Part shown: piece after piece, positions 32,204 through 34,490 of the stretch
Layout: each line of letters opens with the position of its first letter
Position numbering within the stretch: position 1 is the stretch's first letter
Assembly: GCA_036275915.1 (NCBI GenBank)
Contig: DASUCV010000018.1
Coordinates: 1-64,000 of the forward strand
Length of the DNA stretch: 64,000 nucleotides
Direction of reading: 5' to 3'
DNA from: Candidatus Polarisedimenticolaceae bacterium
Lineage (GTDB): Bacteria; Acidobacteriota; Polarisedimenticolia; Polarisedimenticolales; DASRJG01
Notes under the pieces: model-generated
Seen by the model: the letters and a program-made list of their open reading frames with translations, nothing else
The model's database searches: none
Told to the model about the DNA's origin: nothing
Program-made: the position numbers and the translations under genes

Positions 32204-32680
32204 GTGTCGATCCACACGATGCTCGCGGGGTTCGTCTGCGTCACGCTCTTCGGTGCCATGCCGGCGCCTGTCGCATCAGCTTCGCCGGAAGAGACGCCCG
32301 CGGTGAAGTGGAGCTACACGATTTCCGGCACGGACGCGAGCGCGTCGTCGCATCTCAACGGTGTCCTCGCGTCCGCGAGGGCCGCCCAGAGACCGGTCAT
32401 GATCGAGTTCTACGCCGCTTGGTGCGCCGCGTGTCGCTTGCTCGATCGGAACGCGTATTCGGCTCCCGATGTCATCCAGAGCGCGGACCGCTTCGTCACC
32501 ATCCGAGTCGACACTTCGAACGGTGGCGAAGCCACGGATGTGCTCGCCAAACGCTTCGGCGTCCGCGGACTGCCGACGGTGGCGTTCGTGTCGTCGCGCG
32601 GCGCCGCGCTCGCGTCGTCGAACATCGTCGGACTGGTCGACGCCTCGACGCTCGCACGAGAGCTGCGGAAGATCCCCTGA
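32204..32680 (+). CDS. Exported thioredoxin-fold protein (DsbD-gamma-like)
   Basis: A 158-residue protein with a signal peptide (ending ASASPEE) and one thioredoxin domain. The redox motif is CAAC in FYAAWCAACRLLDRN, as in the C-terminal domain of DsbD, and the cis-Pro loop is RGLPTVAFV. GTG 32204 is used. Close coupling with the preceding CC-pair protein suggests they work together in periplasmic thiol reduction. No membrane electron donor (CcdA/DsbD core) is nearby. Confidence 0.8.
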   Translation: MSIHTMLAGFVCVTLFGAMPAPVASASPEETPAVKWSYTISGTDASASSHLNGVLASARAAQRPVMIEFYAAWCAACRLLDRNAYSAPDVIQSADRFVTIRVDTSNGGEATDVLAKRFGVRGLPTVAFVSSRGAALASSNIVGLVDASTLARELRKIP

Positions 32681-32721: not shown

Positions 32722-33258
32722 GTGACACCGCACGCGCGGAAAGAGATTCAGGAGCTGCTCGAGCGCCTGGCCGGCGGGGATCGCGGCGCGATCGAGCCGG
32801 CGTTCGCCGCGCTCTGGCCGCTTCTCCGAGTGTTCGCCGCGCGCGCGTTACGTGACGACGGCCATGGGGAAGATGCCGCACAGCAGGCGATGATCAAGCT
32901 GTTCGCGCAGGTGGCCGATTTCGACCCGTCCCGCGACGGCGTCGCTTGGGCGATCGCGATCGTCTCGTACGAGGTCCGATCGCTCCGGCGGAAAGGCATG
33001 AGACGCCGAGAGGACACGCTCGACCACGCTGGTGACGCCCCCACGACGACCGACACGCCCGAGGCGTTGGTCGTCGAGCGGGATCTCGCGCGCGCCGCGC
33101 GCGAGGTGCTCTCGGACATGAAAGAGGAGGACATGGCCACGATCCTCGCGGCGATCGGCGAACGTCGCCCCGTCGACGATGCCAGGTTCAGAAAACGCCT
33201 TCAGCGCGCCCTTGCGCGACTGCGGCGCGCGTGGGGGGCCAAGCATGAGATCCACTGA
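32722..33258 (+). CDS. ECF-type RNA polymerase sigma factor
   Basis: A 178-residue protein from GTG 32722. The sigma-2 region is seen as LLRVFAARALRDDGHGEDAAQQAMIKL read in part as GEDAAQQAMIKLF and DGVAWAIAIVSYEVRS. The sigma-4 part (EEDMATILAAIGERRPVDDA, RFRKRLQRALARLRR) is present but less typical, lacking an obvious helix-turn-helix consensus. The next gene overlaps by 14 bases and encodes a membrane protein, the usual place for an anti-sigma factor. Confidence 0.75.
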   Translation: MTPHARKEIQELLERLAGGDRGAIEPAFAALWPLLRVFAARALRDDGHGEDAAQQAMIKLFAQVADFDPSRDGVAWAIAIVSYEVRSLRRKGMRRREDTLDHAGDAPTTTDTPEALVVERDLARAAREVLSDMKEEDMATILAAIGERRPVDDARFRKRLQRALARLRRAWGAKHEIH

Positions 33259-33996: not shown

Positions 33997-34230
33997 CTAT
34001 GACTGCGTCGATGCCTGGATCAGCCCCACGATCTCACCTCGGCCCGGCAAGCGCCGTTCAGCTCGGTACGAGAAGATCGTCTTGCCGTCAAGCACCACGT
34101 CCAGTACGCCCTTCTCTGCGAAGCTCATCTTCGGCGAAAGGTTCAACTGGTTCTTGATTTCCCGCTTGAGGCGCACGGCCCCCAGAAGAAGGTTGATTCA
34201 GGTAACACAACGTTTGATCTCGATGGTCAA
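33997..34230 (-). CDS. Candidate selenoprotein: SelW/Rdx-family protein with in-frame TGA at the CxxU position
   Basis: Read leftwards from TTG 34230 (GGAGGAG just upstream) the frame gives 77 codons to TAG 33997 with one internal TGA at 34198-34200 (codon 11). The sequence around it is IEIKRCVT-TGA-INLLLGAVRLKREI, so the TGA stands at the redox position of the Rdx CxxC/CxxU motif. Downstream, GVLDVVLDGKTIFSYRAERR is the conserved core of SelW/SelT/SelH proteins. A hairpin (GGGGC / GCCUC, loop CGUGC) can form about 14 bases after the TGA, where bacterial SECIS elements lie. The alternative is a nonsense-mutated Cys gene. No sel genes are in the window. Confidence 0.7.
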
Positions 34231-34256: not shown

Positions 34257-34490
34257 TTACCGCTCGTCACCACGAGCGTCCCGTTCTTGCTGTGCCCGCA
34301 ACGCGCGGAACTTGTCAACAGCACCCGCAGCCTCGAACGTTGCACCAGCCGGCGTGGACACGAATGCTTGTCGGCAGTCATTGCTGCAAAAATAGTATGT
34401 TCTTCCATCGCGTTCGGCGTGGGGAGCGGTTGCTTCGTCAACGGGCATTGCGCAGACAGGGTCTTTGGTCACGGATTGTGATTCGATCAT
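34257..34490 (-). CDS. YHS-domain protein
   Basis: A 77-residue protein with one YHS domain, a small metal-associated module found in copper/mercury ATPases and on its own: KDPVCAMPVDEATAP and YYFCSNDCRQAF hold the three conserved cysteines. No signal peptide, so cytoplasmic. It is 26 bases upstream of the SelW-like frame on the same strand and probably in one transcript with it, suggesting a shared thiol/metal role. Confidence 0.85.
   Translation of the reverse strand: MIESQSVTKDPVCAMPVDEATAPHAERDGRTYYFCSNDCRQAFVSTPAGATFEAAGAVDKFRALRAQQERDARGDER

Follow-up and report, generated by a model that had tools for sequence, protein, structure and literature searches.

An acidobacterial SelW-like gene with an in-frame TGA: very probably a selenoprotein from an apparently undescribed, selenocysteine-only branch

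The SelW-like (SELENOW-like) selenoproteins of bacteria belong to the Rdx family (Pfam PF10262) and carry a CxxU redox motif (PMC1088965, PMC1794560, PMC9312934). For the bacterial SECIS element (bSECIS), a published model gives a loop of 3-9 nt with a G in the first two loop positions and a spacing of 16-37 nt (PMC13188914). The gene described here, SelW2, has in common with these proteins its fold, its length, the CxxU at the beta1-alpha1 turn and a putative SECIS just past the UGA, and by predicted fold and motif it is of a known kind, a member of the SelW-like selenoprotein family. It differs in that its clade has [KR]RCxxU in place of [EIT]YCxxUNY and stands separately (support 0.99), and in that no Cys form of the clade was found, whereas Cys Rdx forms (EYCTQC) are present in the phylum. 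Since the TGA is kept in 27 related genes, the hairpin is conserved and the selenocysteine (Sec) machinery is complete, SelW2 very probably encodes a genuine bacterial selenoprotein, as a sequence-only reading had proposed: a SelW-like protein of thioredoxin fold from a Sec-only clade, in which UGA codon 11 would be read as Sec by means of the hairpin. Computation established the conservation of the TGA, the machinery, the covariation of the hairpin and the fold; from these sequences we infer Sec insertion itself for SelW2.

In the window, that is, the whole stretch of 64,000 nt that was analysed, SelW2 occupies positions 33997-34230 of the minus strand. A TTG start (34230-34228) stands 4 nt after a Shine-Dalgarno GGAGG (34239-34235) and is followed by nine codons, the TGA (34200-34198, codon 11), sixty-six sense codons and a TAG stop (33999-33997). 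The frame is otherwise open, and with the TGA read as U the product has 77 residues: LTIEIKRCVTUINLLLGAVRLKREIKNQLNLSPKMSFAEKGVLDVVLDGKTIFSYRAERRLPGRGEIVGLIQASTQS (N-terminus also written MTIEIKRC). Direct reading thus agrees with the sequence-only reading, which had given no strand, on the continuous frame, the ribosome site, the start and the stop, and also on the position of the lone TGA exactly at the CxxU motif (C8-V-T-U11). Beside the gene, on the plus strand, a gene for a thioredoxin-like protein (Pfam Thioredoxin_7) adjoins one for an ECF-type sigma factor (32204-32680 and 32722-33258).

The window protein matches Pfam Rdx barely over the cut-off (24.1 bits against 22.6) and stays under the cut-offs of the NCBIfam SelT/SelW/SelH models (TIGR02174, 15.8 of 34.2 bits; NF041051, 36.4 of 88 bits). 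Its AlphaFold2 model (three sequences) has a pLDDT of 92.6 and a beta-alpha-beta-beta-beta-alpha fold, in which the redox motif sits past the first strand (strand 3-8, helix 12-29); C8 ends strand 1 and U11 directly precedes helix 1. The best matches among solved structures were the SelW-related 2obk, 2fa8, 2ojl, 2oka, 2p0g and 3dex (Z 12.5-13.0), followed by MIEN1 (Z 9.5) and mouse SelW (Z 8.4), with ordinary thioredoxins lower, near 7. Indeed, the solved Cys/SelW-related Rdx proteins 2fa8, 2obk, 2p0g and 3dex resemble the model over 74-76 residues (rmsd 1.4-1.5), although their identity to the window protein is only 17-23%. The Rdx fold suggested earlier is therefore supported by the Pfam match and by the predicted structure, which together place the U-containing translation in the Rdx/SelW family.

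The genome that holds the window (4.53 Mb, 98% complete) decodes Sec. It contains a tRNA-Sec (72.4 bits; ARAGORN calls it tRNA-SeC, anticodon TCA), SelA (518 bits), SelB (over the cut-off at 291 bits, or 314 with a neighbouring piece) and SelD (361 bits), and the earlier reservation that this machinery might be missing does not hold. The frame of SelD (L051, G000:C11:265241-266182) has one in-frame TGA of its own, hence SelD is probably itself a selenoprotein, as is known from other bacteria. A second SelW gene is also present (L015, G000:C9:428494), which begins MTIEIEYCTQUNYKPRAAGLAAEL and, with its TGA read through, passes both NCBIfam models (TIGR02174, NF041051). This canonical SelW shares with SelW2 the TGA at the CxxU, the Rdx fold and a hairpin-forming sequence after the UGA (GCCGCC-GGUCU-GGCGGC, a candidate picked by eye), but it belongs to the EYCxxUNY clade and is only 38% identical. 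SelW2 is its paralogue, within the Sec-only [KR]RCxxU clade. The name SelW that the sequence-only reading had given to the gene is thus right for the Rdx/SelW family as a whole and was refined below that level, to a separate branch, distinct from the ordinary SelW that this genome also has.

Searches of the phylum brought up a set of genes starting xIEI[KR]RCxxU. The nearest relative of SelW2, L057 (beginning MNVEIKRCFTULSILFEAGRLKREIREKLNIKPKMSFGGVGVLDVMVDGRTIFSHQAERR), is 60% identical to it in a gapless alignment; L061 and L062 are 43% and 42% identical. A tree built from 58 Rdx sequences joins the [KR]RCxxU genes in one clade (support 0.987), with SelW2 beside L057; the canonical EYCxxUNY genes, the Cys forms (EYCTQC) and a third group with TGA (CPTU) all fall outside it. 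The idea that SelW2 is a decayed copy of the canonical paralogue was rejected because of this separate placement. Of the 30 clade members, 28 (SelW2 and 27 related genes) have Cys as codon 8, the TGA as codon 11 and codons 1-70 otherwise free of stops, and none of the 30 has Cys at the Sec site. The relatives are therefore not further decayed, which had been considered beforehand as a possible sign of a broken gene. An error of sequencing or assembly that turned TGC or TGT into TGA might be suspected in a source that looks like a draft assembly (24 contigs), yet 27 further related genes independently show this TGA, and we regard such an error as exceedingly improbable. Moreover, of the 27 genomes with clade members, selA exceeds the cut-off in 25, and a match to RF01852 exceeds its cut-off in 25; that match reaches only 49-51 bits in G690 and G883 and may be a tRNA-Ser there, and G778 and G956, without a selA match, have a tRNA-Sec at 63-65 bits.

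The remaining two members carry CFWE and PLFP at the redox site. One (L064/L095:1501-1734, G651) has lost the site altogether (IQTPLFP, neither Cys nor Sec), and in the other (L098, G870, minus strand) Sec is replaced by Glu (RRCFWE); both keep the conserved neighbours. Loss of the machinery as the cause was rejected, since both genomes retain selA and tRNA-Sec. The third Rdx-like group of the same phylum (L066, L069, L072, L073, L074 and L075, around 1501) has its TGA in C-P-T-U and a C-terminal GGNWxTRSFGAGYPDLDSV segment, and looks like a further SelW-related selenoprotein branch. Named records with clade members belong to Terriglobia and Acidobacteriaceae. Contigs of named genomes gave only two relatives (35-38% identity), both of which turned out to be clade members with the TGA; viral contigs and plasmids gave none, and an orthologue of the window copy was found in no other close genome. 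A search of the open-access literature, which covered part of the possible synonyms, found no description of the [KR]RCxxU branch. The clade is thus, apparently, an undescribed Sec-only branch of the SelW-like family.

A stem-loop shortly past the TGA had been noted from the sequence. The core of the putative SECIS hairpin lies at 34182-34168 of the minus strand; its 5-bp stem (GGGGC/GCCUC) starts 16 nt past the UGA, and its apical loop (CGUGC) begins 21 nt past it, with 20 nt between. The sequence GGGGC-CGUGC-GCCUC agrees with the published bSECIS model (PMC13188914), but this agreement alone is not discriminating: a loose bSECIS-like filter, useless by itself, was also passed by 147 of 200 random TGAs of the GC-rich window, and in single-sequence folding the minimum free energy of the hairpin was no better than that of shuffles. 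Since a lone stem-loop is therefore weak evidence, it is only the comparison across relatives that establishes the predicted hairpin as real. Among 21 members aligned without gaps, a set that omits seven Ala17 members by a decision taken after the data were seen, nt 16-20 after the UGA pair with nt 26-30 in 95% of cells. RNAalifold predicted exactly the same stem on the relatives. None of 500 shuffles matched the observed pairing or covariation, and the pairing was lost when the partners were shifted by 1-3 bases.

Of the same 21 members, 11 have C-G as the outermost pair (nt 16-30) and 8 have G-C; on one side this pair involves the third base of Leu21, a synonymous position. Members with GAG or GGG as codon 17 have CTC at Leu21, and those with CAG or CGG have CTG, except for two CGG members with CTA. 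Over all members, CTC accompanies G in 9 of 15 cases and CTG accompanies C in 11 of 13; the six G cases without CTC all fall among the seven Ala17 members, which have another stem register, and most of these seem to use GCGC-GGC/GCC-U-GCGC. When all 28 members are counted, 20 have a standard outer pair. At Leu21, 20 of 27 CTN codons show complementarity to the base 14 nt upstream, against 44 of 158 Leu codons elsewhere in these genes (p=1e-5, indicative only, as the sequences are related). The two states are mixed on the tree, with G-C in L057 and SelW2, C-G in L082 of the same clade and G-C again elsewhere (L016/L017/L055/L056), so that more than one switch is needed. At the level of sequence, this covariation of the stem, which runs by way of a synonymous Leu codon, gives direct evidence that a bacterial SECIS element is functional here. 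To our knowledge, support of this kind at synonymous sites has rarely been shown for such elements.

The gene next to SelW2 encodes a YHS-domain protein of 77 aa (34257-34490, minus strand; Pfam YHS, 41.6 bits), upstream on the same strand and separated by a gap of 26 nt. The two genes are probably co-transcribed, as the sequence-only reading had suggested in calling the pairing unusual; the adjacency is real, and the pairing was found in no relative examined (tblastn; most loci cover 1.5 kb on each side). A conserved YHS operon was accordingly rejected. In the family that is rich in clade members, the gene is as a rule flanked by a threonine-aldolase-like gene and an SRPBCC protein on one side and by an acyl-CoA dehydrogenase on the other. 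The order threonine-aldolase-like / SRPBCC / selW2 / acyl-CoA dehydrogenase was seen in this one acidobacterial family at L057, L061, L062, L031/L054, L082, L093 and others, and it suggests a functional link to those neighbours. The clade occurs mainly in another class of Acidobacteriota, and the examined members of the window genome's own class have the canonical SelW type. Thus, the distribution points to lateral acquisition, and SelW2 probably reached this genome in that way.

Past the TGA, dN/dS was 0.05 in two pairs of relatives (L087/L088, L063/L078), 0.19-0.24 in three others (L016/L017, L054/L091, L061/L062) and 0.33 between SelW2 and L057; against more distant members SelW2 gave 0.5-0.8, with dS near saturation, so that these values have little weight. 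The low values indicate that the sequence beyond the TGA is translated. It is formally possible for any lone in-frame stop that a nonsense mutation has killed a Cys gene and that the TGA is a true stop, but the TGA in 28 sequences with Cys never at the site, the complete machinery, the covarying stem and the purifying selection past the TGA in relatives leave this explanation next to no probability. Decay might also be recent and limited to the window copy, within a genuine selenoprotein clade: the UGA would still be decodable, and the gene would be under relaxed selection and redundant beside the genome's canonical SelW. SelW2 does sit on a long branch, its neighbourhood is unlike that of all relatives examined, and it has odd residues near the Sec (V9, N13, G17), with CVTU where near relatives have CFTU; constraint may be relaxed in this one copy. 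Yet the frame is open except for the TGA, the start and ribosome site are intact, the hairpin is intact and in register, the identity to L057 is 60% without gaps and the fold is predicted with confidence, and we consider decay of the copy very unlikely.

As a functional selenoprotein gene, SelW2 would work as follows. The hairpin just past the UGA would recruit SelB carrying Sec-tRNA(Sec) during translation, and UGA codon 11 would then be read as Sec and not as a stop. At its beta1-alpha1 turn the product would bear the redox pair Cys8-x-x-Sec11, and by analogy with its family it would probably act as a thiol/selenol oxidoreductase on some partner. For the clade as a whole, we see about an even chance that it forms an Rdx selenoprotein family in its own right in Acidobacteriota, with obligate Sec and a distinct task; its neighbourhood would link it to the acyl-CoA dehydrogenase, the SRPBCC protein and the threonine-aldolase-like enzyme, and it would have been overlooked for want of Cys homologues and because of its scores below cut-offs. 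Indeed, standard gene callers end or drop SelW2 at the TGA, the curated SelW family models also miss the branch, and the clade, which yielded no Cys form, would for that reason escape searches for Cys/TGA pairs. The two natural variants without the site, PxxP and CxxE, both from genomes that still decode Sec, offer a handle on function. Thus, the SelW-like family gains a Sec-only branch whose SECIS is backed by covariation at synonymous sites.
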